Assembly (NCBI RefSeq): GCF_004920405.1
Contig: NZ_RFLV01000001.1
Span: 62,001-126,000, forward strand
DNA length: 64,000 nt
Direction: 5' to 3'
Source: Pseudomonas leptonychotis
Lineage (GTDB): Bacteria; Pseudomonadota; Gammaproteobacteria; Pseudomonadales; Pseudomonadaceae
Positions 1 through 15,279 of this stretch are shown piece by piece. The first letter of the stretch is position 1. Each line of letters opens with the position of its first letter. Both the position numbers and the translations under genes were made by a program. The notes beneath the pieces were generated by a model. It was not told the origin of the DNA and did not search any database. It worked only from the letters and a program-made list of their open reading frames with translations.

Positions 1-187
1 AAATGTCGGCGCCATGGGTTTCGATACTGGCCTTGGCCTGATGGTCCGCCACCCAACGCTGCAACTCGGCCAGGTCGAGGTCCAACAACACCAGGCGATT
101 GCCGGCGTCACCGGCGAAACTCTCGGCCACGGCGCGACCAATGCCTTTGGCGGCACCGGTAATAAGAATGGTACGTGGCTGGCTCAT
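1..187 (-). CDS. Short-chain dehydrogenase/reductase, N-terminal part (cut by left edge)
   Basis: The minus strand from the ATG at 187 reads an open frame to the window edge. It begins with a Rossmann dinucleotide-binding start: TILITGAAKGIGRAVAE (TGxxxGIG, residues about 9-16), followed by LVLLDLDLAEL, where the acidic residues at the end of beta-2 favour NAD(H). About 62 residues are visible, so the catalytic Ser-Tyr-Lys are outside the window. Its ATG overlaps the stop of the upstream ketoreductase gene (ATGA at 187-184), so the two are translationally coupled and it belongs to the same operon. It is probably a second reductase or dehydrogenase of the KS/ACP pathway. The substrate cannot be inferred from this part. 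Confidence 0.85.
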   Translation of the reverse strand, partial: MSQPRTILITGAAKGIGRAVAESFAGDAGNRLVLLDLDLAELQRWVADHQAKASIETHGADI

Positions 188-921
188 GGCATTTTCAATC
201 CGCCGTTGACCGGCAACACTTCACCGGTCAGGTAGTGGGCACGCTCGGCAATAAACAACACCGCCTCAGCTATTTCTTCGGGCTCGGCATAGCGCTTAAT
301 CAGCAGGCGAGATTGAATGTCCTGCTCCAAGCTGCCGATCAGTGCCTTGCTCATCTCGGTGTTGACGATGCCGGGCGCCACCGCGTTGACCCGGATATTG
401 CGCGGCGCCAGCTCGACGGCCAGCGCACGGGTGAGCGCTTCGACTCCGCCTTTGGCCGCCGCGTAGTTGCTCTGCCCCTTGCCCGGTTTTTGCGCCGCAA
501 CCGAGCTGATATTGACGATGCAACCGCTGCGCTGGCGCATCATGCAAGGCACCACCTGCTGACAGCAGAGCAAGGTGCCGATCAAATTGGTCTGGATGAC
601 CTGAGTGATGTCCTCCAGCGACAGAGTGGCCAGCAGACCATCACGGGTTACCCCTGCGTTATTGACCAACAGATCGATACGGCCGAACGCCCCCTCGATC
701 TGTTCGAAAAAGGCCGCGATGCTCTGCGGTGCACTGATATCGCAATGCAGGGCCAGGCACTGGCCACCCTGCTGCTCGATTTCTTCGCGCAAGGCCGCGG
801 CTGCGGCCTCATCACGCACATAGTTGAAAGCCACGGCATAACCCGCTCCGGCCAATGTCTTGACAATGGCCTTGCCAATCCCACGGCTGCCGCCTGTGAC
901 CACTGCTACTTTGTCGTGCAT
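184..921 (-). CDS. FabG-type 3-oxoacyl-ACP reductase (SDR ketoreductase)
   Basis: A protein of 245 residues, the usual FabG length. It has the NADP(H) motif TGGSRGIG near residue 9, NNAG near residue 88, and the catalytic Ser-Tyr-Lys in NISSVAAQKPGKGQSNYAAAK. The Arg-rich loop after beta-2 fits NADPH. The start at 921 was chosen because GGAG lies about 7 nt upstream; an open frame continues to 1014 but encodes no SDR sequence. It starts 10 nt after the stop of the aminotransferase-reductase fusion gene and its stop overlaps the next SDR start. In this operon it most likely reduces beta-keto groups on the dedicated carrier protein. It is inferred to be pathway-specific rather than the housekeeping fabG, because no fabD/fabH/fabF neighbourhood is present. 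Confidence 0.9.
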   Translation of the reverse strand: MHDKVAVVTGGSRGIGKAIVKTLAGAGYAVAFNYVRDEAAAAALREEIEQQGGQCLALHCDISAPQSIAAFFEQIEGAFGRIDLLVNNAGVTRDGLLATLSLEDITQVIQTNLIGTLLCCQQVVPCMMRQRSGCIVNISSVAAQKPGKGQSNYAAAKGGVEALTRALAVELAPRNIRVNAVAPGIVNTEMSKALIGSLEQDIQSRLLIKRYAEPEEIAEAVLFIAERAHYLTGEVLPVNGGLKMP

Positions 922-931
922 GCGGGTCTCC

Positions 932-3802
932 TTAGAGCGAATTCGCGGTTTTGAACTGGGCCAGGCCGAAGCCGTGTGTCGCGGCGATGGCGCGAATCTG
1001 CTGAACCTGCTCACGACTGATGTCGCCGTAGGAGTAGTGCTGCTTCATTCCCGATAGCCCCATCAGCACCGACTCGGCCATGCAGGCATACAGCTGATCT
1101 TGCTTCAGGTAAGCCCGCACATTCGGCGCCAGACCATCGCCCAGCGGGGTCTGCACAATGCCGCCATGCATATAGAGCACATCGGCGCGCTGCTCAGGCA
1201 GCGCTTGGTCAACGTTCAGCGGTACAGCGATATCGCAGATCACCGCGTTCTCGGCGAAATGGTCGGCGCCCAAGAATGCCTCCGGCGCATTGGCCGCGCA
1301 GAGCACGATGCGTGCCCGCTTAAGCACCTGCAGATCATTGCTGACGGTGATAAAGGCGTTTTCCCCGGCCTGCTCGCCAACATGGCGGAACAAACGCTGG
1401 CCCAGATCGTTGCTATCGCCGTGTTGCGCGATCAGCTCGCTAACCCCCGGCAGCTGCTGCAAGCGTGTCGCCAGGCGATCCTGAGCAAAGTTGTCATTGC
1501 GAATGGCCTTGGCGGCATCCGCGTAGATCAACTGAGCGGTTTTCTCCAGACGCCGGGTCGAGCCGTCGCGACCGCTGCCGATCAGGATCAGATGATCAAC
1601 CTTCTCCGAGAGCAGCGAAGCGTAAGTGGAGGCAATATTGCCGGCCGCGCCGACCACCGCCGCGGTTTCCTCGGCCATATCGAGCCCCTGCTTGACGCAG
1701 CCCTGCTCAATGGCTTCCAGACCCATGCCGATGGTCAGGGCATTGCCGGAGGTCAGCGCCATATCCGGCACCGCCAGTGCCTGGCAGTTGTTGGTGACGA
1801 TTGAGGTGTACATGCCCAGGCCAGCAACGCTATAGCCATCAGCCCGCGCATCGCGGATACGGTTGGTGATTTCCTCACGGATGGTGGCCAGATCGCCGCT
1901 GGCGATGTACTCGGCCATGGCGTTGGAGTCCATGCACAGCGGATACAAAGTGAACTCCACCGCTGTGCCCAGACGTGAACGGATCAGCACCGGGCCTATA
2001 GGCGCCGAGCGTCGTTCGGGAGCCATGCGTTGGATAAACACTCGCTTCTGTTCCGCGCTAAGAGCGGCCAAAGATGGATCGACATCGCTAAACATGTCGG
2101 CATCAATCAGGTGGTTGATAAAGGCCACCCGCGCCACCACCGGCACGGCCGAGTCAGGCTTTGGCGCACTGACTTGTTCCTGGAAGTTCCCCTCACGCTC
2201 ACCCACCTCGGGAATCAGGTCGGCGCACACACCAGCCACCAACGGGAAAGCATCACGGCGGCGGAGCATTTCGCAGACCTTCTGCAGGGACGCTATCAGG
2301 CCGTCAATTTCGGCGAAGGTGATGCACGCAGGCGGCTCCAGGCGGATCACATTGGCATTGCTGCCAGACGGTGCAACCCGCAGCTGCTCGTGCTGCAGCA
2401 AATACCCCGCGATGATGTAGCCCAGCGCGTCGTTGTACTGCGCCGATGCCTGCACCAAGGAACTGCTACCGGTAACGTCGTGCAGCTCGAAACCAAGCAG
2501 TAAACCACGGCCGCGCACATCGGCGACCACGTCCGGGTAGGCCTGCTGCAACTCGACCAGCGAGGCTTTTAGGTACTCACCTTTTTTCTGCACGTCCTTG
2601 AGCATTGCGCCGTCTTCAGCCAGCAAGCGCTGCAGCGCCAAAGACGCGACTCGGCAAGACACATCGTCCTCGGCGAAGGTGGAACTGTGGATATAGCTGA
2701 AATCGGGGTCGTAATGGCTAGCGCGGATCAGGGTCGCAGCAATCTTGGTCAGGCTGCCGCCCAATGCCTTGGACAGGCAGTAATAATCGCCCTGCAGCTT
2801 GAACTGACTGCTAGCCAACAGGGTGCCGGCGCGGCCGAAACCCGACTGCACCTCGTCGATGATCAACGGGCACTGCTGCTCGTTGCAGAAACGCCGTACC
2901 GCCAGATAAAACTCGGCGGGAAACTCATTGATACCGCCCTCGCCCTGAATCGGCTCAAGCAGAAAACCGGTGATGGCGCTGAATGGTTGACGACGCAGCT
3001 GAACGCCCTCGCCCTGCCACTCCAGGCTCAGCCAATCGCGGCGGTAACGCACCTTCATCTCTTGCAGCTGCTCCGGCTGCTGCGGATCGAGAAACTCCAC
3101 CTGTAAACCGAAGCGCGCGAAGGGTTGGCGATACTGCCGGCCATGGGTCAGCTGTACGGAATTGACCAGCTTGCCGTGGAAACTGCGGCGCATGGCGATA
3201 AACACCGGTTCGCTGTGCAACAGCTCCAAGTTGTGTTGACGCAGCGCTTCTACCAGCTGGCGTAACGTGCCATAGGACTGATTGCTTGGGAGCAACCCTG
3301 ATGGCAAATCCAGCTCATCGAGGTCCAGCTCAGCATAGGCTTTGTCGCTTGCCAGCAGCTGCGCTAGGGCAAAATCCACCTCGTCGAATTGCTGCTGCAG
3401 GTTCTTCTGTCGACGGTACTCAGCGTGCTTGACGGCGATTTCCACCGACTCGGCACCACTGTTGGAGAAGGTCGAGATATAGCGCTCGCTGTTGTTCAGC
3501 TCGCCATTCAGCGCATCGCTCAATTGATGCGCCAGTTCACCGGCGGCGCTGCGCACCGACATCTGCGCATTAAACGGCACATCAGCGCGCAACATATCGC
3601 AGACCGCATCAACGAACTGTGGATCGTTGTGACCGAATAAGGCCGCCCCATAGCCACCCAAAAAGTCGGTCACGGCCACCTCGGCACCCTGCGCGTCGCG
3701 GTAGTACAGCTTGCTGCCGCGGGCTCGGTGGAATTCTTTCTCCAGACCAAGGGCCTGCATCAACTCAACGTATTTAGGTCTTACGTAATCGCGATAATCC
3801 AT
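932..3802 (-). CDS. Bifunctional class III aminotransferase - acyl-ACP reductase fusion
   Basis: A two-domain protein of 956 residues. Residues ~1-510 are a PLP class III (ornithine/acetylornithine type) aminotransferase with IIDEVQSGFGRAG (314-326) and the PLP lysine in CLSKALGG (Lys345); about 70 residues are inserted after EIAVKHAEY near 125. Residues ~555-956 resemble cyanobacterial long-chain acyl-ACP reductase: GLGMYTSI (661-668), the nucleotide-binding VVGAAGNIAS (716-725), YMHGGIV, and ACMAES with Cys907 at the position of the catalytic Cys294 of the Synechococcus enzyme. The predicted reaction is reduction of an acyl-ACP thioester to an aldehyde, then transamination to a primary amine. 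The closest logic known to me is TamH of tambjamine biosynthesis. The start at 3802 follows AAGGA 10 nt upstream; an open frame extends to 3907 without similarity. The reductase domain has roughly 50 more residues between its nucleotide-binding site and Cys907 than the cyanobacterial enzyme. Confidence 0.88.
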   Translation of the reverse strand: MDYRDYVRPKYVELMQALGLEKEFHRARGSKLYYRDAQGAEVAVTDFLGGYGAALFGHNDPQFVDAVCDMLRADVPFNAQMSVRSAAGELAHQLSDALNGELNNSERYISTFSNSGAESVEIAVKHAEYRRQKNLQQQFDEVDFALAQLLASDKAYAELDLDELDLPSGLLPSNQSYGTLRQLVEALRQHNLELLHSEPVFIAMRRSFHGKLVNSVQLTHGRQYRQPFARFGLQVEFLDPQQPEQLQEMKVRYRRDWLSLEWQGEGVQLRRQPFSAITGFLLEPIQGEGGINEFPAEFYLAVRRFCNEQQCPLIIDEVQSGFGRAGTLLASSQFKLQGDYYCLSKALGGSLTKIAATLIRASHYDPDFSYIHSSTFAEDDVSCRVASLALQRLLAEDGAMLKDVQKKGEYLKASLVELQQAYPDVVADVRGRGLLLGFELHDVTGSSSLVQASAQYNDALGYIIAGYLLQHEQLRVAPSGSNANVIRLEPPACITFAEIDGLIASLQKVCEMLRRRDAFPLVAGVCADLIPEVGEREGNFQEQVSAPKPDSAVPVVARVAFINHLIDADMFSDVDPSLAALSAEQKRVFIQRMAPERRSAPIGPVLIRSRLGTAVEFTLYPLCMDSNAMAEYIASGDLATIREEITNRIRDARADGYSVAGLGMYTSIVTNNCQALAVPDMALTSGNALTIGMGLEAIEQGCVKQGLDMAEETAAVVGAAGNIASTYASLLSEKVDHLILIGSGRDGSTRRLEKTAQLIYADAAKAIRNDNFAQDRLATRLQQLPGVSELIAQHGDSNDLGQRLFRHVGEQAGENAFITVSNDLQVLKRARIVLCAANAPEAFLGADHFAENAVICDIAVPLNVDQALPEQRADVLYMHGGIVQTPLGDGLAPNVRAYLKQDQLYACMAESVLMGLSGMKQHYSYGDISREQVQQIRAIAATHGFGLAQFKTANSL

Positions 3803-3825
3803 CTGTGCCACATCCTTTGCATGAA

Positions 3826-5079
3826 TCAAGATTGCAGGGTCGGTTGAGAAAACTGTGCCGTGTCCGCGCCTAAGGTCCGTGCTTCTCGCTGCTCGAGCTG
3901 GTAACAAGCGCTGAAACCGTTGTCGTCGCGGTTAACGATGGCGCACCGCTGCAGTCGCGCCGGGCGGCTGGCACCCATGGCAAACGGCAGATCCTCGTTG
4001 ATTGGTTGGCGCAAGCCGGCAATCGGCGGCACGCATTGGTCCTGCAGCGCGCGGCAGGCCAGAATCAAATCCACCAGACTGGGTGCGCCACTAAGAATGC
4101 CGGTCAGCGGTTGGCCGCTGGAGACGTGCGAGGTTTGTATGGCAGCCAGGGTTTCGCTCAACTGGCGGTCTTGCTCGGGTATCGCCGTACCGCCGCACAG
4201 CAGCAGATCGACCGGTTTGTTGGGCAGTCTCAACTTGCCAAGCTCGGCATGCGCCGATAGCCCAGTCAGGCAAATCTGCTGCGCCCCCCACAAGTCTTCG
4301 CTGCGCCGCAACACCAACGCCGCAGCGCCCTCACCGGCAATACCACCGCTGCCCTCTCGATCGAAGGGGCGGAACGCGCTGCTGCCGTTAGAGCTGATAA
4401 CACCCGCCTGAGCCAAAGCTGAGAGGGCCAAACCATCCAGTTCGCTGCCTGCGCCAACCACCACGGCCACATCAATGCGGTAGCTTTGCAAGGCCGCACT
4501 GGCCTCCTGCAGGGCCGCCAGATTACCGGCCACGCCTTGCATATAAGCGTTGCACTCGCACTCGAATTTGTTGACTAGGCTGACGATGCCGAGCAGCCCA
4601 TTACTCAGACTCTTGAGCACCAGAAAGGGGTCCAACGCCCGCTCCTGCAAGACCCTGCGTGCCAGCCGGCAGATATCCAAACCATTATTGCCGTTGCACT
4701 CATGCAGCAACTCCGCATAAGAGTCGAGCGAGGGGTGGGTATAGCCGCCCTGGCAGCAGTACAAGCCATAACGCAGACGGTCCTTGCGTGGTTCCAGCCC
4801 GGCCTCGTCCAAGGCCTGCTGTACTGCATTGACGCCCCAGATCACCGATGGCGGGCAATAACGCTGCAGGTTCGCCGCCACCTCCTTGCGACATTGTTGA
4901 TGCACCTCGTCGGCGACATGCCCAAAGGCAACCACGCGCCGACTGTGAAAATGCGCAGAGCGCAACGGACCTATGGCGCTACGCCCATCGCGGGCGGCCT
5001 GCCAGAGCGCATCAACACCCAAGCCACTGGGCAGCACACAACCCGTGCCGGCAATACTGATTGAATTATCCAAACGCAT
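3826..5079 (-). CDS. Chain-length-factor-like ketosynthase homologue (active Cys replaced by Gln)
   Basis: A thiolase-fold KS homologue of 417 residues. The nucleophile region reads CNAYMQGVAGNLAAL, so Gln181 stands where KS enzymes have Cys. This is the same substitution as in chain-length factors of actinobacterial type II PKSs. The HGT and GHxxGxxG histidine motifs are also lost (CGGTAIPEQD and LTGILSGAPS). The protein should be non-condensing and pair with an active KS, most likely the product of the gene just upstream. The ATG at 5079 overlaps that gene's stop (TGATG), with GGAGG about 8 nt upstream; an open frame extends to 5205 inside the neighbour and is ignored. The alternative, an inactive relic, is less likely because the frame and coupling are intact. 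Confidence 0.82.
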   Translation of the reverse strand: MRLDNSISIAGTGCVLPSGLGVDALWQAARDGRSAIGPLRSAHFHSRRVVAFGHVADEVHQQCRKEVAANLQRYCPPSVIWGVNAVQQALDEAGLEPRKDRLRYGLYCCQGGYTHPSLDSYAELLHECNGNNGLDICRLARRVLQERALDPFLVLKSLSNGLLGIVSLVNKFECECNAYMQGVAGNLAALQEASAALQSYRIDVAVVVGAGSELDGLALSALAQAGVISSNGSSAFRPFDREGSGGIAGEGAAALVLRRSEDLWGAQQICLTGLSAHAELGKLRLPNKPVDLLLCGGTAIPEQDRQLSETLAAIQTSHVSSGQPLTGILSGAPSLVDLILACRALQDQCVPPIAGLRQPINEDLPFAMGASRPARLQRCAIVNRDDNGFSACYQLEQREARTLGADTAQFSQPTLQS

Positions 5080-6374
5080 CACAGAACCTCCCGGTATTTG
5101 CGCACGACCAGCGAGGTGTTCAAACCACCGAAGCCGAATGAGTTGCTCAAGGCCAGATCGACCCGACGGCTGACCGCCTGCTGCGCGCAATACTGCAGAT
5201 CGCATCCGTTATCGGGATGGTGCAAGTTGACCGTAGGGGTGATTCGATCGTCGCGGCAAGCCAGTGCCGTGAGCATCATTTCCGGGGCACCAGCCGCCGC
5301 GATTAAATGGCCAAACTGCGATTTATTGGCGCTGACCGCTAGCTGCTGGTAGTGGTCGCCACGGGAGAACACGTTCTTGATCGCCAAGGTCTCGGTCGCA
5401 TCGTTGAGCGGCGTGGACGTACCGTGGGCGTTGATCATGTCCACCTGCTCAGGCTCCACGCCAGCATCGCGCAGCGCAGCCTGCATGGCGAAAGCGGCCC
5501 CACGCCCCTGCGGATCGGGCGCGGTGACCTTATAGGCATCGAGGCTGCTACCGAAGCCGATAATTTCCGCGTAGGGCTTCGCCCCCCGTGCCAATGCCCG
5601 CTCGAGCGTCTCGAGCACGATAAAACCACCGCCCTCGCCGGCCACCAGGCCGCTGCGGTCACGATCAAAAGGCCGGCACAAATCTTTGCCCCAGCGTTGT
5701 TCGCTGCTGGCCGCGCCGAGCAAATAAAGCGCGCCCATGGTGTCCAGATTGAGCACCGAGTCGGCACCACCGGCTAAGGCAATCTCGACTTCGCCGCGCC
5801 TGATCATTTGGAACGCATTGCCAATGGCCTGGGCCGCACCCGCACAAGCGCTGCTGATATTAATCACTGGCCCCTCACACCCGAGATCGTCGGCGATTAC
5901 CTGGGCCAGGCGGTCGTTGCTCTGGCGCAGCGAACCTTGCACCTGCACCTCAACAGCACGCTGCATCAGGTGCCGCCAATCAGCACCTGCGTGTGCCTCA
6001 TCCGCCAGGGCTAGCTGCATATCCGCCAGCATGTGCTGCGGCGCACCAGAGGCGCACAGAACAGCTGCATCACGCAGCTGCTCCGCTTGCAACCCGCTGT
6101 CACTGAACGCCTGAGTGGCTGCAACCCAGCCATAACGGCTACGCTTCTCCAGCGGCAACCGCCAGGCAGGGTGTTCCTGCAAATACGCTGGCAGCAGGCC
6201 CATATCTACCGCTGCGGCATAGCGCACCGGAAAACTGCCATCGGTTATTTCCTCGGGCTGCCAAGGACGGATGCAATGCGCACCATCGAGCATCTGCATC
6301 CACATGGACTGCCACTCGAAACCAAAACCGGTCACCGCGCCCATACCGGTGATCACTACTCGTCTCGCACTCAT
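5079..6374 (-). CDS. Beta-ketoacyl-ACP synthase, catalytically complete (FabF/PKS-II KS type)
   Basis: A protein of 431 residues with a full elongating-KS triad: Cys177 in NISSACAGAAQAIG, His317 in NAHGTSTPLND, and Lys351/His356 in SANKSQFGHLIAAAGAPE. The C-terminal SNSFGFGGLNTSL is typical of FabF. It performs decarboxylative Claisen condensation of malonyl-ACP with an acyl chain. It overlaps the preceding degenerate KS gene by ATGA (6371-6374) and the following CLF-like gene by TGATG. That arrangement matches KS-CLF pairs, so this protein and the 3826-5079 product probably form a heterodimer. The chain length and starter unit cannot be read from the sequence. Confidence 0.9.
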   Translation of the reverse strand: MSARRVVITGMGAVTGFGFEWQSMWMQMLDGAHCIRPWQPEEITDGSFPVRYAAAVDMGLLPAYLQEHPAWRLPLEKRSRYGWVAATQAFSDSGLQAEQLRDAAVLCASGAPQHMLADMQLALADEAHAGADWRHLMQRAVEVQVQGSLRQSNDRLAQVIADDLGCEGPVINISSACAGAAQAIGNAFQMIRRGEVEIALAGGADSVLNLDTMGALYLLGAASSEQRWGKDLCRPFDRDRSGLVAGEGGGFIVLETLERALARGAKPYAEIIGFGSSLDAYKVTAPDPQGRGAAFAMQAALRDAGVEPEQVDMINAHGTSTPLNDATETLAIKNVFSRGDHYQQLAVSANKSQFGHLIAAAGAPEMMLTALACRDDRITPTVNLHHPDNGCDLQYCAQQAVSRRVDLALSNSFGFGGLNTSLVVRKYREVL

Positions 6375-7453
6375 GCGCCCTTCTCCATCTTTGCGATTTC
6401 CAGCAGTAGCGCGCCGCAGTGCCCTGCGCGACTGCGCGTCATCAGCAAGACATAACGCGAGCGAGGCTCGTGCTCATGGCGTGAGTCGCCAATTGCATAG
6501 GCGATATCGGTCAACAGCGCACTGGCGCCAAGATCACCTGTGAGGTCACGACTGCTGCGTGGGGTGGCGGCTGGCGCGAACAACTCACGCAGAATCGGGT
6601 CTCGCTCATCAGCGACCAACAACTCGACATCGCTCAAGTTGACCCGCTCAGTACTTAAGGCCTGCTCTAGTACCCGCTCGGCCAAAGCCGCAGCACGTTC
6701 GACGCGGGCGCTGTAAGCCCGCCCCCAGCCCGCGACACGAATGACCAGCGGCGCGGTGAGCGGCGCAACAGTGGCCAACAGCACAGCTGCCGCCCCCTCC
6801 CCATAAATGTCAGCGTCAGTGCCATCGGGATAAGACGTCCCTTCACGCAGGTACAACGCAGGGGTGATGTTCGGGCTACTGCTGACCACCAACGCAGCGT
6901 CTGCACGCGCCTCAGCAAGCATGGTTACAGCCTCGATAAAAGCGTCGATGCCGGCATTGCTCTGCGAGCAGTAACCCGCCATCGGCCCATTGCAGCGCAG
7001 GCCTTCTGCGACATAAGCCATCACACTGCTGTTGAGTAGGGTCAACGCGTGCAGCGGTGGCGTATTGGCAAACAGCTGGCCGAGCAGTTTGTGTGGTTGC
7101 TCGCGAATGGCCTCTACTGCGTCCCAGCAAGGGCTCGGCGCATCGACCTCAGGAATTGCCGCAGTGAGGGCAACCCGCTCCGCAGGCAGTTGCAAGTCGC
7201 GCAATGCAGGCGCCAGACGCGCAGCACAGTGCAGCAAACGCAGGCCCTGAGCTTCAACACTGCGTTGGATCTTGCGATCGAACAAGTCGATGGCCAAACG
7301 CGGAGTGGCAATAGGCCGCGCCAACCGGTCCAACTTGAAAGTAGGCGCTTGCGCCGGCTGAGCAGCTGCATATAGATCGCTTGGAGAGCTGCCGGCCGCA
7401 TTGAGCAGCGCGAGGTCGACCAGATAAACCTGACGTGCATGTGAGCCATTCAT
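6371..7453 (-). CDS. Degenerate ketosynthase-like protein (second non-catalytic KS partner)
   Basis: A 360-residue KS-fold protein, about 60 residues shorter than its neighbours. The nucleophile elbow reads GYCSQSNAGIDAF, aligning Ser where Cys is expected (a nearby Cys is three residues too early). The HGT motif is replaced by VADERDPIL and GHxxG by LTGDLGASALL. It is therefore not a condensing enzyme and is likely a CLF-like subunit for the KS encoded upstream. The start at 7453 was chosen over 7459 because GGGAGG lies 8 nt before the later ATG and only 2 nt before the earlier one. The reading frame is intact and closely packed between two active KS genes, which argues against a pseudogene. 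It diverges most strongly of the four from FabF. Confidence 0.75.
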   Translation of the reverse strand: MNGSHARQVYLVDLALLNAAGSSPSDLYAAAQPAQAPTFKLDRLARPIATPRLAIDLFDRKIQRSVEAQGLRLLHCAARLAPALRDLQLPAERVALTAAIPEVDAPSPCWDAVEAIREQPHKLLGQLFANTPPLHALTLLNSSVMAYVAEGLRCNGPMAGYCSQSNAGIDAFIEAVTMLAEARADAALVVSSSPNITPALYLREGTSYPDGTDADIYGEGAAAVLLATVAPLTAPLVIRVAGWGRAYSARVERAAALAERVLEQALSTERVNLSDVELLVADERDPILRELFAPAATPRSSRDLTGDLGASALLTDIAYAIGDSRHEHEPRSRYVLLMTRSRAGHCGALLLEIAKMEKGA

Positions 7454-7455
7454 GC

Positions 7456-8733
7456 TCATGCCCTCCCCAATACGATGGAGCTGTTTACGCCACCGAAGCC
7501 GAACGAGTTGGACAGCACGATGTTGATCGACTGCTTGAGTGGCTCGCTAAGGAAGCGCAGTTCGGGAAACTCAGCGCCTTGCGCGTCGTAGTTCAGGGTC
7601 GGTAGCAACACCCCATCACGCAGACTGATCAGCGACAGCACCGCTTCGATGGCGCCGCTTCCAGCCAGGGAGTGACCCAGCGCAGATTTGTTGGCGCTCA
7701 GCGTCATGCCGTCCAACAGATCACCGAACAAGCGTTTCAGCGCATGGGCCTCGCAACTGTCATTGACCTGCGTTGAGGTACCGTGAGTGTTCACATGCTG
7801 TATGGCGTAGCGCAGCAGACCGGCGTCTTCGATGGCCGCTTCCATGCAGTGTTCGTACTTGCTGCCGTCGCGACTGCTTGAAGTCATTTTCTCCGACTCG
7901 CAAAAGTTGGCATAACCGAGCACGCGCCCCAGCGGTTTAGCGTTACGGCGCTCGGCATGCTGTTTCGATTCGAGGATGATTAAAGCCGCGCCCTCACTCA
8001 GCACGAAGCCGCTGCGATCACGCATAAACGGTCGACTCTGCTGCTGCGCCGGCACATCGGCCTTCTGGCACAAAGCCCCTAGGCTGTTGAACATGTAATA
8101 GGGCAACTCGTTAGCCATCAGCTCGACCGCACCACAGATAGCCAGGTCGATTTCGCCGCGCTCGATAGCCCGATAGGCACTACCAATGGCCACAGTACCG
8201 GCGGCACAGGCATCCGAATGGGTGGAAATGTGATCGCGAATGCCTAGCCGCTTAGCAAGATGTAAGGTTTGCTGGTCAACGCGGCGAGCAAACGGATGCT
8301 CTACCCTTTCCTGACGCTGTAGAAAGCGATCCAGATCAAGGCTGCCGCGCTCGTCCAAACACATACAAGCCAGATCAAGGTCCTGACTGTTGGCGCAGTA
8401 CTTGTTTGCCCCCAAAAACAGGCCGCTGGCAACCTGACTGAAGGCCTCAGGCTGTAATCCTGCATGCTGCAAGGCTTGTTTCGCTACGTACTCGGCCAAC
8501 ACCGTCTGACGTGGTTGAGCGCTCGGGTTCTCATCAAACCCTGCACGCAACTGTTGCCACTGCTGATCGTCGATAAAGCCGGCCGCCGCGTTGGGAAAAC
8601 CAAGCTCGACAAATAGTGGATGCTCACGTACGCAAGAACGCTTCTCGCATATGCGCTGGAACAGACTCTGTGCATCCAATACGGTGGGGGCCACCAGACC
8701 GTAGCCGGTGACATAAACTTCGCGCGCCCGCAT
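7456..8733 (-). CDS. Beta-ketoacyl-ACP synthase, catalytically complete (first KS of operon)
   Basis: A 425-residue elongating KS with Cys176 in HSDACAAGTVAIG, His317 in NTHGTSTQVND, and Lys349/His354 in SANKSALGHSLAGSGA, plus SNSFGFGGVNSSI near the C-terminus. The substrate-facing loop between residues 110 and 170 is Cys-rich and differs from housekeeping FabF/FabB. It starts 8 nt after the carrier-protein stop, with a GGGGGCGG ribosome-binding sequence. With the degenerate KS just downstream it forms the first of two KS / KS-like pairs. The role is chain elongation on the neighbouring ACP. Whether the two pairs act in series or make alternative products is not visible. Confidence 0.9.
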   Translation of the reverse strand: MRAREVYVTGYGLVAPTVLDAQSLFQRICEKRSCVREHPLFVELGFPNAAAGFIDDQQWQQLRAGFDENPSAQPRQTVLAEYVAKQALQHAGLQPEAFSQVASGLFLGANKYCANSQDLDLACMCLDERGSLDLDRFLQRQERVEHPFARRVDQQTLHLAKRLGIRDHISTHSDACAAGTVAIGSAYRAIERGEIDLAICGAVELMANELPYYMFNSLGALCQKADVPAQQQSRPFMRDRSGFVLSEGAALIILESKQHAERRNAKPLGRVLGYANFCESEKMTSSSRDGSKYEHCMEAAIEDAGLLRYAIQHVNTHGTSTQVNDSCEAHALKRLFGDLLDGMTLSANKSALGHSLAGSGAIEAVLSLISLRDGVLLPTLNYDAQGAEFPELRFLSEPLKQSINIVLSNSFGFGGVNSSIVLGRA

Positions 8734-8741
8734 ACCGCCCC

Positions 8742-9311
8742 CTAGGCGACTGCCGACAGATGGGTCGCAACAAATTTCTCCACCAGACGCTGGGAGATTT
8801 CGTCACCGTCCACCGGCGTAACCCGGGCGCTACAAGAAGAACACACCACCTGCTGACGCTCATTCAACTCAGCATGTTCCCCGCCGCACTCGGGGCACAC
8901 GGCAGGCAAGTAGTTGAAGACACCACGGCACTGCTCTGCCCAGTTACGCACAGTAGTCACAGCAAACACATCCGCAGGCTTCATGCCGACCCGTAACTGG
9001 TTCGACGCGTAGACGCTCAGGCTCTCCTCCAAGAGTGCCTTGCCCGCTTCGGTCAGCCCGCCTTCAAGGACAAATGCATCCAGGCTCCCGCAAACGGTTA
9101 CCGCATGCTCAAGCACGCTGGTTTTCGGCAAGGTACAGCCATAGAGTCGACCAAGCTGAAAACTCAGATCGACAATATCCAAAGAATCGGCGGACAAATC
9201 CTCAACCAAGCTACTATCAGGCGCTATATCCGCGGCATCAATCGCCAGCAGTTGCGCTAATATTTCACGGGCACTAACGATAACTTCATTCAGTTCGACG
9301 GGGTTATTCAT
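8742..9311 (-). CDS. Acyl carrier protein fused to a C-terminal zinc-ribbon domain
   Basis: A 189-residue protein. Residues 1-85 are an ACP with SLVEDLSADSLDIVDL; Ser43 in DSLD is the 4'-phosphopantetheine site. Residues ~86-135 are a linker of unknown fold, and residues 136-165 form a rubredoxin-like knuckle pair (CPEC at 139-142, CSSC at 157-160) likely to bind zinc or iron. Stand-alone ACPs are about 80 residues, so more than half of the protein is extra. The ATG at 9311 is preceded by AAGGAG with a 6-nt spacer; a TTG at 9317 is too close to that site. It is the promoter-proximal gene of the operon and presumably carries the chain for all downstream enzymes. The metal knuckle might dock a partner enzyme (inference). 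Confidence 0.85.
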   Translation of the reverse strand: MNNPVELNEVIVSAREILAQLLAIDAADIAPDSSLVEDLSADSLDIVDLSFQLGRLYGCTLPKTSVLEHAVTVCGSLDAFVLEGGLTEAGKALLEESLSVYASNQLRVGMKPADVFAVTTVRNWAEQCRGVFNYLPAVCPECGGEHAELNERQQVVCSSCSARVTPVDGDEISQRLVEKFVATHLSAVA

Positions 9312-9388
9312 ATGCAACTCCTTATTTGTCCATTTGCAGAATTTCGTCGTATCGCAACGCTAAACAAGCACTTCGCTGCGGACGGCAA

Positions 9389-9419
9389 ATCTAAACTCTC
9401 CCCCTAAGGGTAGAGTCAA
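9389..9419 (-). promoter_or_regulatory. MerR-type promoter/operator of the KS-ACP operon
   Basis: On the minus strand, TTGACT (9419-9414) is followed by TTAGAT (9394-9389) at 19 bp, or by the overlapping TTTAGA at 18 bp. A 22-bp dyad fills the space (9395-9416): half-sites ACTCTACCC and GGGGAGAGT, with 18 of 22 positions symmetric. An over-long spacer occupied by a dyad, and the TTGACT-CT start, are hallmarks of promoters bent by MerR-family activators (copA, cadA and pbrA type). It lies about 78 bp upstream of the ACP start codon. No MerR-family gene is visible in the window, so the regulator is unknown. Confidence 0.6.
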
Positions 9420-10064
9420 TACGGCATTACCAACTTCGCGGAAATGTCATACACAAAAGGGACAAAGAGTTTCTTTACAACCCCACACTCTATCGAGCCT
9501 CAACCGCTCTAGATAAGGCCTTAACAAGAAACTTCCAACTTGCAAAACCACCAGACCAGCAACACCACTGCAGGCTTTCAACTACTTGCCAGCAAAGCAT
9601 TATGCAAACCAGCTCACACCTCATGGCCAACTTCTGACGACTTTCTTTCATTGCAATGGCTGTGCATTTCAACGCGCGCGCCAAAACAGGGCATAAATGA
9701 CTACAGGGTCATTAAAATAAAATCATTTATTCATAAATTTGATATGCAGCCGACATCAAGTATCCGTTAGTAAATACCTGACAGAAGAATTAAAGGCTTG
9801 GTATTTAATAATTGAAGTTACTAATACGAAAAATCAACTATTCAGACAGTGCTCAAGCACACTTCATCAAACCAATATGGATATACAGCTCACCCTCTGG
9901 AGCTTGCGGAACGCGCAGCTAGTTAGTGGATATAGCCACAACAATCGACGTGAGCCGTCAGCCCACAGGTAGCCTGGCAACACCTGTTGGCCTATTCACA
10001 ATCGGTTAGCTCGACAGGTAAACGGCGCCGCCTGGCTTGGGAAAGCAGTGAGTGCCATGCATGC
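9420..10064. other. AT-rich non-coding gap upstream of the KS-ACP operon
   Basis: About 650 bp with no convincing gene. Open frames of 60-77 codons exist but have no recognisable family, no good ribosome-binding site and stop-rich surroundings. Roughly 9700-9880 is clearly A/T-rich compared with the GC-rich neighbours on both sides. No tRNA, inverted-repeat ends or transposase fragment was found. It may be decayed DNA at the edge of an acquired segment. Confidence 0.5.
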
Positions 10065-10292
10065 TTAACCCCACGCCTCTAGCTCGGCGCACAGCAGGAC
10101 ATTTTTAGGGACGCCGAGGTGCCTGCCCGCCAAGCGCAACCCGGTTTCGTGCCCGTAGGCTAAATGCTGACAATCCAGTAGCTGTAGCCCTACCCTATGG
10201 GTTAAAGCTACGAGTCGACGCCAGGTATTGAACGATGCAGTCAGTCGCCCGCATGGGGCGTGCGCGACTCCAAAATAGAGCCCCTCAATCAC
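10065..10292 (-). pseudogene. Possible C-terminal remnant of a leucyl/phenylalanyl-tRNA transferase (aat)-like gene
   Basis: The minus-strand frame of 75 codons contains, in order, EGLYFGVA, a CG pair, LQLLDCQHL and a Gly/Pro-containing tail. These align with the Aat family pattern GG-[LM]-Y-G-V-A, the CGESMFS region, L-I-D-C-Q and the HxxSLGA..IPR segment. An in-frame TAG lies about four codons upstream of the GTG and there is no room for the N-terminal half before gloA, so if the match is real this is a broken fragment. The SMFS core is not preserved. The resemblance is by eye only and could be chance. Confidence 0.33.
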
Positions 10293-10359
10293 CGCAATCT
10301 AGCGATTTGACATGCTGACTCGCCGACAGAGGCCTACTGAGCGACCCACAGCAGGTTGA

Positions 10360-10752
10360 TCAGTCCTTACGCGAAGGCGATAACAGCTCGATCTTGTAGC
10401 CGTCCGGGTCTTCTACAAACGCCAGGATGCTACTGCCATGCTTCATCGGCCCTGGCTCACGGGTGATCTTGCCGCCGCGGGCACGGATGTCTTCGCAGGC
10501 TTTGTACACATCAGCCACTTCCAGAGCGATATGGCCATAGCCGCTGCCCAAGTCGTAACTCTCTACGCCCCAGTTATGGGTCAGCTCAATCACGCTGTTA
10601 TGCGCCTCATCGCCGTAGCCGACGAACGCCAGGGTGAACTGCCCCTCGGGGTAGTCCTTGCGACGCAGCAGGGTCATGCCCAGCACTTCGGTGTAGAACG
10701 CGATGGATTTATCCATATCGCCGACGCGCAGCATGGTGTGCAGCAGTCTCAT
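10360..10752 (-). CDS. gloA: Lactoylglutathione lyase (glyoxalase I)
   Basis: A 130-residue cytosolic enzyme that isomerises the methylglyoxal-glutathione hemithioacetal to S-lactoylglutathione, for methylglyoxal detoxification. The four metal ligands of the short, nickel-type bacterial class are all present: His5 (RLLHTML), Glu56 (VIELTHN), His74 (GYGHIAL) and Glu122 (KIELL). The length equals E. coli GloA. The start at 10752 follows GAGGAG 7 nt upstream; in-frame ATGs at 10770 and 10767 lack a site. It lies next to argG as in P. aeruginosa (gloA1, PA3524, from memory). Confidence 0.97.
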
Positions 10753-10797
10753 CAGGTATCTCCTCATCATTGCCCGCGATACCGGGCTTATAAATGC

Positions 10798-10822
10798 AAA
10801 CCCCGGCTTATGGCCGGGGTTT
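10798..10822 (-). terminator. Rho-independent terminator downstream of argG
   Basis: A perfect 10-bp stem (AAACCCCGGC / GCCGGGGTTT) with a 5-nt loop, 25 nt past the argG stop. On the minus strand it is followed by TTT and further T-rich bases. Confidence 0.8.
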
Positions 10823-10847
10823 GGTCAGGCTCAGGTGCTCAAGTCTA

Positions 10848-12065
10848 TCAGAGCATCTTGCGGCCTTTGCCGGCGGCAATGCGCAGGCGCAGGGCGTTGA
10901 GCTTGATAAAGCCTGCAGCGTCCTGCTGATTGTAAGCACCGCCGTCTTCTTCAAAGGTGGCGATATTGGCATCGAACAGGGAATCATCGGACTTACGCCC
11001 GGTGACGATCATGTTGCCCTTGTACAGCTTCATGCGTACCACGCCGTTCACGTTGGCCTGGGATGCATCGATCATCTGTTGCAGCATCAGACGCTCTGGG
11101 CTCCACCAGAAACCGTTGTAGATCAGGCTGGCATATTTCGGCATCAGCTCGTCTTTCAGGTGGGCGACTTCGCGGTCCAGGGTGATCGACTCCATGGCGC
11201 GGTGACCCTTGAGCATAATGGTGCCACCCGGGGTTTCGTAGCAGCCACGGGCTTTCATGCCCACGTAGCGGTTCTCGACCATATCCAGGCGGCCAATACC
11301 GTTGGCCCCGCCGATGCGGTTCAACTCAGCCAGTACGGTAGCCGGGCTCATCTCAACGCCGTCAATCGCAACGATGTCGCCGCCGCGGTAGGTCAGCTCA
11401 ATGTAGGTTGGGGTGTTGGGTGCGTTCTCTGGCGAGGTGGTCCAACGCCACATGTCTTCTTCGTGCTCGGTCCAGGTGTCTTCCAGCACGCCACCTTCAT
11501 AGGAGATGTGCAGCAAGTTGGCATCCATGGAGTACGGCGACTTTTTCTTGCCATGACGCTCGATCGGGATGGCGTGCTTCTCTGCGTAATCCATCAGCTT
11601 TTCACGGGACATCAAATCCCATTCACGCCATGGCGCAATCACTTTCACACCCGGCTTCAGTGCATAGGCACCCAGCTCGAAACGCACTTGGTCGTTACCC
11701 TTACCGGTCGCGCCATGGGAGATAGCGTCAGCGCCGGTTTCGTTGGCAATTTCGATCAAGCGCTTGGCGATCAGCGGACGAGCGATCGAAGTGCCGAGGA
11801 GGTACTCGCCTTCATAAATAGTGTTGGCGCGGAACATCGGGAAAACGAAATCACGCACGAACTCTTCGCGCAGGTCATCGATGTAGATTTCTTTAACGCC
11901 CATGGCCTTCGCCTTGGCGCGAGCCGGCTCGACTTCCTCCCCCTGGCCGAGGTCTGCGGTGAAGGTCACCACTTCGCAGTTATAGGTGTCTTGCAGCCAC
12001 TTGAGGATCACGGAAGTGTCCAGGCCACCGGAATATGCCAGGACTACCTTGTTTACGTCGGCCAT
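10848..12065 (-). CDS. argG: Argininosuccinate synthase
   Basis: A 405-residue enzyme joining citrulline and aspartate with ATP hydrolysis, the penultimate step of arginine biosynthesis. The N-terminal [10 protein letters not shown] (residues 10-19) is the ATP-pyrophosphatase P-loop. [15 protein letters not shown] binds citrulline/aspartate, and [19 protein letters not shown] is the conserved middle segment. The length matches the type 1 family (about 400). GGAG is 8 nt before the ATG. It is a single-gene unit with its own terminator, between gloA and motY as in P. aeruginosa. Confidence 0.98.
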
Positions 12066-12196
12066 GCCATCAACTCCACGGGGTTGTGCGGGAAACCCGT
12101 GATTCTACTGGTCGCGTCGCCTTATTTACAGAGGCGCGACAGCTTGTGACGACCAAGCGACGGTTAAATTGTTGAACAACCGTGCAATCACTGTTG

Positions 12197-13108
12197 CTAG
12201 GACGTGGCCGCAGGGTCAGTCGGCGCCGCTGCTGGCGCAGGTGGCACAGCGGCCTCAGGCACGCGATCAAGGAGGATGGTCACCCGACGATTCTTCGCCC
12301 GATTCGCTTCATTATTATTCGGCGCAACCGGGTAACGCTCACCATGAAAACGCATGGTGATCTGCTCAGGCGCAATCCCGCTCGCTTTGAGGTATTCCAT
12401 TACGGCCAAAGCCCGGCGGCGTGACAGATCGCGATTGGTCAGACGATTGCCGCTGTTGTCAGCATGCCCGTCAAGCTGAATACGGTTGACGCTGGGGTCT
12501 GCCTTGAGGAAGTTCAAGATGATCTCCAGCTTAGCCTGGGCCAGCGGCTCAAGGTCCACCCCGCCCCCCGGAAAGCCGACCTGGCTTTTACGTATTTGAT
12601 CAAAGTTCACCGGCAGCAGCTTGGCCGTGCAGTCCAAATAATCGTTGTAGGCCTTATGGAACTTAGCGGGCAGCAGACGCACCTCAACCGCATCACCGCC
12701 CATTGCCGCGCGATGCCGCACCACTGGGCTGCGGCCTTCAAGCAACCCCGTCAGCAAGCGCGCGCCCTGCTCCTGGGAACTGTTAAACAGCACCTCGGCG
12801 GGCACAACGCTGACCGAGCCCAGGTTGATATCACCTCGCCCCGGCTGCCAGGGCGCCGCCGCCGCCAACAGCGTGGCATTGCCAGCACCCAGCCAACGCT
12901 CGCGGGCTTCGAGACTGAAGGTGACCTGCTCGCCGGCACGGCGCACAAACACCCCGGATCCGAAATCGGTGACGGGCTGCGACAGACGGCACTCAAATTG
13001 ATCGCCGTCTACCTTCCACTCGATCTTCTCCAGACGCGTCTGGAAACTGATAGCAAGAGCAGGCTGGCTTGCCAGCAGGCAAAGCATGGCGAATGGGGTG
13101 AGTCGCAC
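12197..13108 (-). CDS. motY: Flagellar motor stator-associated protein MotY (OmpA-family C-terminus)
   Basis: A 303-residue periplasmic protein that forms the T-ring around the flagellar basal body and holds MotAB/MotCD stators in Pseudomonas and Vibrio. Residues 1-19 are a signal peptide ending ALA. Residues ~20-160 are the MotY-specific N domain. Residues ~165-285 are the OmpA-like peptidoglycan-binding domain with IQLDGHADNSGNRLTNRDLS and AKNRRVTILL. The tail after 285 is Ala/Pro-rich and disordered. The start codon is GTG at 13108, supported by GGAG 6 nt upstream; the next ATG lies inside the signal peptide. It is divergent from pyrC across about 210 bp. The position between argG and pyrC matches PA3526. 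Confidence 0.93.
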   Translation of the reverse strand: MRLTPFAMLCLLASQPALAISFQTRLEKIEWKVDGDQFECRLSQPVTDFGSGVFVRRAGEQVTFSLEARERWLGAGNATLLAAAAPWQPGRGDINLGSVSVVPAEVLFNSSQEQGARLLTGLLEGRSPVVRHRAAMGGDAVEVRLLPAKFHKAYNDYLDCTAKLLPVNFDQIRKSQVGFPGGGVDLEPLAQAKLEIILNFLKADPSVNRIQLDGHADNSGNRLTNRDLSRRRALAVMEYLKASGIAPEQITMRFHGERYPVAPNNNEANRAKNRRVTILLDRVPEAAVPPAPAAAPTDPAATS

Positions 13109-13317
13109 GACAGGCTCCAGGGAATACGGCTTACCCTGTGGCTATCGGTGCCTTCGCGGAAAACTTGAGCACAACCTGTAACTGCTCACACGTATCGCCA
13201 GCGCACGTCGAGCCTGCAGCAGGTTTACCGCTTTACCGGTAAGCGCCGCTTTCAGCGTGCTGCAACGGGGCTTTTCCGGTAGCATTCTCGCCACGTTTTG
13301 CCCGCCTGGAAGCTTCC

Positions 13318-14364
13318 ATGACTGACCGCCTTACCCTGCTGCGTCCCGACGACTGGCACATCCACCTGCGTGACGGTGGCGTACTGCCGCACACCGTCGC
13401 CGATGTAGCCCGTACCTTCGGCCGCGCCATCATCATGCCCAACCTGGTGCCGCCCGTGCGCAATGCCAGTGAAGCCGACGCCTACCGTCAGCGTATTCTT
13501 AGCGCCCGCCCAGCCGGCAGTCGCTTTGAACCCCTGATGGTGCTGTACCTCACGGACTTGACCGAGCCGGACGCTATTCGCACCGCCAAGGCCTCAGGCT
13601 TCGTGCATGCAGCCAAGCTCTATCCGGCCGGCGCAACCACTAACTCTGATTCCGGCGTAACCAGCATCGACAAGATTTTTCCGGTGCTTGAAACCATGGC
13701 CGAAGTGGGCATGCCGTTGCTGGTGCATGGCGAAGTAACGCGCAACGAGGTCGATATATTCGACCGCGAGAAAGTCTTTATCGGCGAGCATTTAAGCCGT
13801 GTGGTCGAGCGCTTTCCAACCCTGAAAGTGGTCTTCGAGCACATCACCACCCGCGATGCGGTGGAGTTCGTGCAAAGCGCCTCGGCCAACGTTGGCGCGA
13901 CCATCACCGCCCACCATCTGCTGTACAACCGCAACCACATGCTGGTTGGCGGCATTCGCCCGCACCTCTTTTGCTTACCAGTCCTCAAGCGCAATACCCA
14001 TCAGGACGCGCTGCTGGATGCGGCCACCAGCGGCAACGCCAAGTTCTTCCTCGGTACAGACTCGGCACCGCACGCCAAGCACGCCAAGGAAGCAGCCTGC
14101 GGCTGCGCCGGCTGTTACACCGCCTATGCCGCCATCGAGCTGTATGCCGAAGCCTTCGAGCAGCGCAACGCGCTGGACAAACTAGAAGCCTTCGCCAGCC
14201 TCAACGGCCCGGACTTCTACGGCCTGCCGCGCAACAGCGACAGCATCACCCTGGTGCGTGAAGACTGGACCGCACCGGCCAGCTTGCCGCTGGGCGATCA
14301 AACCGTTATCCCGCTGCGCGCCGGTGAAACCCTGCGCTGGCGTCTGCTGGAGAAGCACGCGTGA
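13318..14364 (+). CDS. pyrC: Dihydroorotase (class II, PyrC type)
   Basis: A 348-residue zinc enzyme catalysing reversible cyclisation of carbamoyl-aspartate to dihydroorotate in pyrimidine synthesis. Metal ligands visible: His14 and His16 ([10 protein letters not shown]), carboxylated Lys100 ([11 protein letters not shown]), His in LLVHGE and FEHITT, and the Asp in FLGTDSAPH. The length fits the E. coli-type enzyme (347-348). GGAAG lies 5 nt before the ATG. It overlaps rnt by four bases and is co-transcribed with it. Confidence 0.98.
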
Positions 14365-15035
14365 GTGAAGACCTGTACGACGACGAATCTGAGGGCAACA
14401 GCCATTCTGGCCCACGCCACCCGATGGCCGCGCGTTTTCGTGGCTACCTGCCGGTAGTCGTGGATGTGGAAACCGGTGGCTTCAATAGCGCTACCGACGC
14501 GCTGCTGGAAATTGCTGCCACCACCATCGGCATGGACGAAGGTGGTTTCCTCTATCCGGAGCACACCCAGTTCTTCCGTGTCGAGCCGTTCGTAGGTGCG
14601 AATATCGAGCAAGCGGCGCTGGATTTTACCGGCATCAAGCTCGATCACCCCTTGCGCATGGCCGTTACTGAGGAGCACGCGCTGACGGAGATTTTCCGTG
14701 GTCTGCGCAAATCACTAAAAGCCAACGGCTGCAAACGAGCAATCCTGGTCGGCCATAACAGCAGTTTCGACTTGGGCTTTCTCAATGCGGCCGTGGTGCG
14801 TACTGGCATCAAGCGCAACCCGTTCCATCCCTTCTCCAGTTTTGATACCGCGACCCTGGCCGGCCTCGCCTATGGCCAGACCGTGTTAGCCAAAGCTTGC
14901 CAGGCCGCCGGGATCGATTTCGATGGCAAAGAAGCCCACTCGGCCCGTTACGACACTGAAAAGACTGCCGAGCTGTTCTGCGGCATCGTCAATCGGTGGA
15001 AAGAGATGGGCGGCTGGATGGACTTCGACGACTAG
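14361..15035 (+). CDS. rnt: Ribonuclease T
   Basis: A 224-residue DEDDh 3'-5' exoribonuclease that trims tRNA CCA ends and other stable RNAs. Exo I is [10 protein letters not shown] (Asp35, Glu37), Exo II is [11 protein letters not shown], and Exo III is [10 protein letters not shown] with the general-base His. The start codon is GTG at 14361, overlapping the pyrC stop (GTGA), so expression is coupled to pyrC. The N-terminal 25 residues are acidic and longer than in E. coli. The order pyrC-rnt is as in P. aeruginosa PA3527-PA3528. Confidence 0.97.
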
Positions 15036-15101
15036 GGTTAGGGCAGTCAACGATCTGCTGCGCGTCCGCCCTGCTACGTTAAAAACAGACGAGTAATGCT
15101 C

Positions 15102-15189
15102 ATGTACAAAAGTACACTCCGCTTACTCGCCTGCCTTTGCCTTGCAGGACTGTAGCTCGCAAGATCTAGAGCAGTTGTGTCTATGCTGA
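15102..15189 (+). pseudogene. Possible frameshifted small lipoprotein
   Basis: From the ATG at 15102 the frame reads MYKSTLRLLACLCLAGL then TAG at 15153. Shifting by one base after the glycine codon (15147-15149) gives LCLAG followed by CSSQDLEQLCLC and a stop at 15187-15189. The combined reading is a classic lipobox (L-A-G-C) with a polar start, that is, a very small lipoprotein with a one-base insertion. It lies between rnt and a strong terminator. It could be a decayed gene, a sequencing error or chance. Confidence 0.3.
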
Positions 15190-15197
15190 CGCCAGAC

Positions 15198-15246
15198 ATG
15201 AGCCAATAAAAAGCCCCGCACTAAGCGGGGCTTTTTATTGGCTCAT
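15198..15246. terminator. Bidirectional terminator between rnt and gdhB
   Basis: A perfect 22-bp stem with a 5-nt loop; the core is AAAAAGCCCCGC / GCGGGGCTTTTT, extended outwards by ATGAGCCAAT / ATTGGCTCAT. The U-tract works on both strands, serving pyrC-rnt (+) and gdhB (-), which converge here. Confidence 0.9.
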
Positions 15247-15279
15247 AAACCGCGCAGGCCAAAGCCTGCGCGTTTACCC

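Follow-up and report, generated by a model that had tools for sequence, protein, structure and literature searches.

A koreenceine (kec) gene cluster in Pseudomonas with a putative MerR-type promoter and a zinc-ribbon-like carrier-protein tail

We find that the operon at the left end of the analysed window, a stretch of 64,000 nucleotides of the Pseudomonas leptonychotis genome, is together with its left flank the already described koreenceine (kec) cluster, as judged from gene content and order. Koreenceines are hemlock-like alkaloid antibiotics of soil Pseudomonas, reported to be made by kecA–kecK of Pseudomonas koreensis, where deletion of kecA–K removed koreenceines A–D and the inhibition of Flavobacterium johnsoniae (Lozano 2019, PMC6498172); the cluster is catalogued as MIBiG BGC0001987, in a family of 664 members that is 99% Pseudomonas (PMC11888242). 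The locus is very probably best explained as a complete koreenceine-type cluster with the published chemistry and a putatively MerR-driven kecA promoter. The pathway is thus a known one, and what looks new is the MerR-type regulatory detail and the tail of the acyl carrier protein.

The window covers bases 62001–126000 of contig C1, in a 4.39-Mb genome of 29 contigs, and its left end is filled, from 9311 down to base 1, by eight minus-strand genes whose junctions overlap or nearly touch. They encode an acyl carrier protein (ACP) with Ser43 and a C-terminal extension bearing a four-Cys zinc-ribbon-like motif (kecA, 189 aa, 8742..9311; PP-binding at 41.7 bits against a cut-off of 20.8); two ketosynthases (KS-alpha) with catalytic residues (kecB, 425 aa, 7456..8733; kecD, 431 aa, 5079..6374), each followed by a KS-beta/chain-length-factor-like protein without the catalytic Cys/His (kecC, 362 aa, 6371..7459; kecE, 417 aa, 3826..5079); a class III aminotransferase fused to an acyl-ACP-reductase-like domain (AT–AAR; kecF, 956 aa, 932..3802); a beta-ketoacyl-ACP reductase (FabG; kecG, 245 aa, 184..921); and the 5′ part of an SDR (kecH, 254 aa in full, 1..187). 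Domain searches and gene coordinates confirmed all eight coupled minus-strand genes of the initial annotation, which had read them as ACP, KS, KS-like, KS, CLF-like, aminotransferase/acyl-ACP reductase, FabG and SDR. The most likely start of kecF is the ATG at 3802, giving 956 aa as in the eleven closest homologues (an alternative GTG at 3811 would give 959 aa); the kecG frame is open upstream to 1014, and its natural start is the ATG at 921, backed by the alignment with PDB entry 9NG1.

The window edge cuts kecH at base 1. Extending the sequence leftward, as the initial annotation had advised, completed this gene, which continues to C1:61423, and recovered three further same-strand genes absent from the window: kecI (427 aa, outer-membrane-like, no Pfam family), kecJ (LolA-like; PF17131, 173 bits) and kecK, an 866-aa MMPL/RND transporter. 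A merR gene (139 aa, C1:56129–56548) lies convergent to kecK, and the stretch from the remainder of kecH through merR spans C1:62187 to C1:56129 (L009). The left flank had been suggested as one possible source of a thioesterase, a dehydratase and an acyltransferase; this is not supported, its operon-adjacent part carrying kecI–K and the MerR gene. The phosphopantetheinyl transferase family PF01648 has a single match in the genome, on another contig. Overall G+C (0.60 in kecA–H, 0.56 in kecI–K, 0.59 in the surroundings) does not mark the cluster as foreign; at third positions, kecA–C (0.61–0.66) lie somewhat under argG and glutamate dehydrogenase (0.72–0.73), and kecF–G are not lower than these two genes. 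Scanning five loci and window bases 1–20000 revealed no tRNA near the cluster. Elsewhere, the window holds a distant KecK-like (MMPL/RND) stretch of 22% identity (27556–29172, minus strand), and the genome has two more ketosynthase matches close together (G000 C1:1123381–1126353; L010).

From ACP, KS-alpha, KS-beta, KS-alpha, KS-beta and AT–AAR fusion, through two reductases and two predicted membrane proteins, recognised here only as outer-membrane-like and LolA-like, to a transporter, the gene order equals that described for kecA–kecK in PMC6498172, which assigns kecA as the ACP, kecB and kecD as KS-alpha, kecC and kecE as KS-beta, kecF as a fusion of aminotransferase and acyl-ACP-reductase-like domains, kecG and kecH as reductases, kecI and kecJ as predicted membrane proteins and kecK as the transporter. 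By this published description, the likeness to the kec cluster of P. koreensis CI12 extends to the 11 genes, their order, the KS-alpha/KS-beta pairing and the AT–AAR fusion. In Pseudomonas putida KT2440 the kec cluster is PP_2777–PP_2787 (PMC10829540), a comparable gene set whose antiSMASH match to the P. koreensis koreenceine cluster is given as 100% by the authors of PMC12490732; its enzymes were assayed singly, and no KT2440 product is reported in the portions of PMC10829540 and PMC12490732 covered here.

With KecF as query, relatives at 74% identity or above were found in 9 of 95 genomes, its own included, and in five named Pseudomonas. All 11 genes are present and collinear in 12 of the 13 other loci at this threshold (L031–L042), while the thirteenth (L043) meets a contig edge after kecG; with the gene order shared by 12 of 13 loci, the set is not a product of chance. 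Per-protein identity runs from 81–97% in Pseudomonas sp. CC6-YY-74 down to 56–77% in P. sivasensis P7, a species for which a complete koreenceine operon has been reported (PMC12595949). Four more distant KecF relatives (28–36%; L044–L047) were rejected as further kec clusters, having no kecA, kecC or kecE match; the other matches are weak, namely a KS resembling KecB/KecD in L047, KecJ in L045 and L047, and KecK in L045. In locus L045 (G051, about 30–17087), an aminotransferase-reductase with 28% identity to KecF belongs to a different kind of cluster, which also encodes a DUF1302 protein, two AMP-binding enzymes, a LolA-like domain in-frame with MMPL and another weakly KecK-like gene; it has no kecA–kecE match and is perhaps a fatty-amine pathway fed by acyl activation. 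KecF-like proteins (28–31%) also lie near AMP-binding enzymes in L047 (G025, 5158–18816), alongside a KS and a weakly KecJ-like protein, and in L046 (G001, 5336–11049).

Upstream of kecA, at window positions 9391..9419 on the minus strand, we identified a candidate promoter with a MerR-type operator, TTGACTCTACCCTTAGGGGGAGAGTTTAG, present in 14 of 14 kec loci. It consists of a −35 box (TTGACT) and an inverted repeat of 22 nt; the −10-like element after it, either TAGATT (20 bp spacer) or TTAGAT (19 bp), extends to about 9386. The right edge drawn by the initial annotation, 9419, is the −35 end of this promoter. The site lies 79 nt upstream of kecA in the window and 79–92 nt upstream across the 14 loci. 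A 29-nt block over most of the site is 81% alike on average among kec loci, with 49% and 61% in the adjoining blocks, 39% in the next block downstream and 25–31% in four blocks further upstream. Allowing up to three mismatches, the pattern has a single occurrence in the genome of the window and none in 100 shuffled versions of the window; among the 95 genomes it is found in 13, nine of them with kec, each time at kecA, and four without. When 33 loci and the window were scanned, every site with seven mismatches or fewer stood either at kecA or before an oxidoreductase gene.

The putative regulator matches PF13411, PF00376 and PF09278 above cut-off (MerR HTH and DNA-binding domains), and its gene is found past kecK in each of the 12 other loci that cover that side (L031–L042; cut by the locus end in four), while the L043 genome carries it on a separate contig. 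The chromosomal neighbours tested, argG and nth, are common to L031 and L032 only, the kecK-side DNA compared being less than 1 kb in L036–L042. Homologues of this MerR (E ≤ 1e-30) occur in 22 of the 95 genomes, nine with kec and 13 without. In all 13 kec-less genomes merR is downstream of, and on the same strand as, a homologue of one oxidoreductase gene, the one member scanned being a flavodoxin-fold protein (PF02525). Operator-like sites beginning TTGA precede the oxidoreductase gene with 3–7 mismatches in 12 of these 13 genomes; the last site, with 8, is no better than chance, because the best chance matches in six other stretches of 18.5–20 kb have 8–10. Flavodoxin-fold oxidoreductase and then merR thus form a small operon of kec-less Pseudomonas (L053–L065), mostly with the kecA type of operator; in Pseudomonas sp. 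RIT-PI-AD (L032, 3062–3684), the oxidoreductase gene sits at the opposite end of kec, before kecA, with an operator of its own (3 mismatches). Since the sites fall only at kecA or the oxidoreductase gene, and in MerR genomes, the operator, the MerR and the two putative target genes go together, and in relatives without kec this type of MerR and operator seems to serve the oxidoreductase gene.

A rather unlikely alternative is that the inverted repeat at kecA is a terminator, an RNA element or the site of another regulator, and that the neighbouring MerR serves the oxidoreductase gene only. Its appeal is that the action of MerR on kecA is read from sequence alone, that several kec genomes have merR beside the oxidoreductase gene with its own operator-like site, and that linkage to kec could reflect an insertion hot spot. 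As a dyad, moreover, the kecA site is not outstanding in every locus: it pairs 8–11 of 11 positions, the strongest competing dyad within 400 nt pairs 7–9, and in the window the two tie at 9, so the dyad by itself does not settle the operator reading. A published transposon screen of 2,500 mutants hit cbrA and cysB and lists no merR in the part covering it (PMC6498172), although a screen with two hits inside kec was hardly saturated. Against this alternative, one operator type is found at kecA and before the oxidoreductase gene, with 13 occurrences in 95 genomes, only there and only with this MerR; in the window's genome, merR has no oxidoreductase gene beside it (the homologue is on another contig and has no operator), and the sole such site is at kecA; and a palindrome-bearing spacer of 19–20 bp is typical of MerR promoters (PMC9909328).

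Two cysteines of the regulator, at residues 54 and 121 of 139, may bear on what it senses; both are kept in the 11 sequences recovered from 14 loci searched. Cys54 is the sensing residue of NmlR (PMC4776306), and the likeness of the kec MerR to NmlR/AdhR in this respect is one of residue numbering. With CueR and NmlR/AdhR it has in common the MerR HTH domains and, putatively, an operator within a long −35/−10 spacer, but it falls below the curated NCBIfam cut-offs (CueR 77 of 147 bits, NmlR 39 of 175), and assignment to the CueR, ZntR, CadR or NmlR subfamily was rejected, every curated cut-off being missed. A link between koreenceine and MerR was not found in the main texts of open-licence PMC papers, where two papers naming both do so through a reference on AdhR in one and a plant authority name in the other; nothing relevant appeared there for PP_2788, the portions of PMC9586298 covered here name no such regulator, and the literature examined names no cluster-specific koreenceine regulator in the sections concerned. 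The MerR gene and operator are likewise absent from the published description of the CI12 cluster in its covered parts. The conserved, apparently MerR-type promoter upstream of kecA looks new.

The enzymes of the cluster conform to the koreenceine assignment. KecF is a class III aminotransferase by domain search and acyl-ACP-reductase-like at its C-terminus by sequence match to the structure database, where this domain matches solved AARs and PigE. The context of its PLP lysine is kept in 14 of 14 loci (a stricter motif, SKA[LM]GGS, in 2 of 14 only), as is a cysteine aligned with the AAR acyl-enzyme Cys, reported as C294 (PMC10829540). The cyanobacterial reductase with which the C-terminal domain aligns (PDB 6JZQ, 6JZU) is a stand-alone fatty-aldehyde enzyme, unlike the fused KecF. 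PigE of prodigiosin biosynthesis (NF053554; PDB 4PPM) likewise combines a reductase and a class III aminotransferase in one protein and is homologous in both parts, but has the opposite domain order, and KecF, at 277 bits against a cut-off of 850, is not a member of that family. The KecF homologue of KT2440, PP_2782, has been assayed as a transaminase (PMC10829540). The best PDB hit of KecG is 9NG1 (191 of 244 aligned residues identical, 78%), the crystallised PpFabG4 (PP_2783) of KT2440, whose activity is reported as low (PMC12490732).

In the ketosynthase pairs KecB–KecC and KecD–KecE, domain searches assign KecB and KecD as ketoacyl-synthases, and by alignment their Cys/His/Lys/His set is intact, with active-site motifs conserved across 14 of 14 loci. 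All four residues are missing from the aligned positions of KecC and KecE, and the degenerate KecE motif holds in each of the 9 of 14 loci examined for it. KecC has no Pfam hit and no PDB sequence match at E ≤ 1, and its predicted model (pLDDT 87.6, pTM 0.87; from the window protein and 47 of 65 homologues listed) adopts a KS/CLF fold. Structurally, the KecC model comes closest to chain B of the KS–CLF of the actinobacterial ishigamide pathway (PDB 6KXD), with a TM of 0.77 at 17% identity.

The biosynthetic steps of koreenceine are given in PMC6498172 as proposed, not reconstituted. Following that proposal, the pairs KecB–KecC and KecD–KecE would act with KecA to add two malonyl units to a C10 acyl starter, KecG and KecH would reduce, the C-terminal domain of KecF would release the chain as an aldehyde and its N-terminal domain would transaminate it, after which the amine would close on a keto group to give a 6-alkyl-tetrahydropyridine, an analogue of gamma-coniceine; KecI–K may export the product. 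To this we add that transcription would start at the MerR-type promoter upstream of kecA and be driven by the MerR encoded beside kecK. Iterative type II condensation, reductive release by an AAR-like domain and transamination had all been anticipated by the initial annotation and agree with the published proposal; of its two suggested products, the cyclic imine is the more likely and the linear primary amine the less likely, the published proposal including ring closure. A 6-alkyl tetrahydropyridine is accordingly the most likely product suggested by the gene set; koreenceines A–C have m/z 208.2067, 210.2224 and 226.2171 (PMC6498172).

A kec-like cluster with a different product, either a linear long-chain amine or a tetrahydropyridine of other chain length, is improbable, although the tree position of the cluster gives it some footing. 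In the KecF tree, which is midpoint-rooted, the window pairs with Pseudomonas sp. CC6-YY-74 (support 100/100) and falls outside a 15-row group (100/100) that takes in both the loci closest to P. mandelii and those closest to the P. putida group, with less firm intervening forks (97/96 and 84/81). These loci were assigned to the published clades A and B through KecA identity alone (KecA of L037 is 98% identical to a protein of P. mandelii, and that of L042 98% identical to one of P. shirazica), and on this basis the window cluster seems to branch before their split, in distinction from the CI12 cluster, as a separate KecF branch apparently outside both. KecF shares 74–80% identity with its counterparts in the clusters closest to the published species groups, so the product could differ in chain length or oxidation level, and KecC, which may set chain length, shows the lowest conservation among the 11 proteins (53–64% in all relatives but L031). 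Yet the 11 genes, their order and all catalytic motifs examined are conserved, and Pseudomonas sp. SWI36, with a cluster of Lozano's clade B, also yielded koreenceine C (PMC6498172), which favours a koreenceine-type product.

That the set represents an undescribed type II PKS/FAS pathway to long-chain amines, as first proposed, is scarcely credible: the gene set had been read correctly and the best 25 NCBIfam families per protein include none named for koreenceine, but the same 11 genes in the same order constitute a named pathway. The initial annotation knew of no named pathway with exactly this set and had offered such a match as its own refutation; the set is koreenceine kecA–kecK, for which products have been isolated, a deletion mutant made, the KecF homologue PP_2782 assayed and a KecG homologue crystallised.

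The carrier protein KecA consists of an ACP followed by about 110 residues with two Cys-x2-Cys knuckles, C139-x2-C142 and C157-x2-C160. All 50 sequences of the alignment have these four cysteines, as do 14 of 14 loci (a narrower motif, CP.CG, occurs in 8 of 14 only). The alignment holds the window protein and 49 of 57 listed, one near-identical copy, three fragments and four sequences of odd length or chimeric build being left out. The knuckles follow the pattern of a zinc ribbon, and the tail may bind zinc; the corresponding Pfam match (PF08271) is below its cut-off, at 18.3 against 29 bits. A Foldseek search with the predicted model (pLDDT 95.2, pTM 0.89) returned nothing at E ≤ 0.001; the top-ranking rows were ACPs, aligned mainly over residues 4–136. 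We found no zinc-ribbon-like KecA tail in the main texts of open-licence PMC papers, and the feature looks new. It may explain why the KT2440 homologue, PpACP2, was described as having ‘an unusual predicted structure’ and was inactive in vitro with the fatty-acid-synthase enzymes tested (PMC12490732).

Taken together, we somewhat favour a model in which a MerR-family protein that originally controlled a flavodoxin-fold oxidoreductase operon, as it still would in kec-less Pseudomonas, also switches koreenceine production, and in which KecA is a two-domain ACP whose zinc-ribbon-like tail would separate it from the ACP of central fatty-acid synthesis. Because the kec promoter shares its operator with that operon and the MerR keeps Cys 54 and 121, the cue for alkaloid synthesis may be an electrophile, a redox change or a metal, and perhaps the aldehyde or imine that the pathway itself forms. 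The conserved operator and neighbouring merR would offer a direct handle on the timing of rhizosphere antibiotic production, and the regulation would be testable in P. putida KT2440 if the cluster there has the same site.
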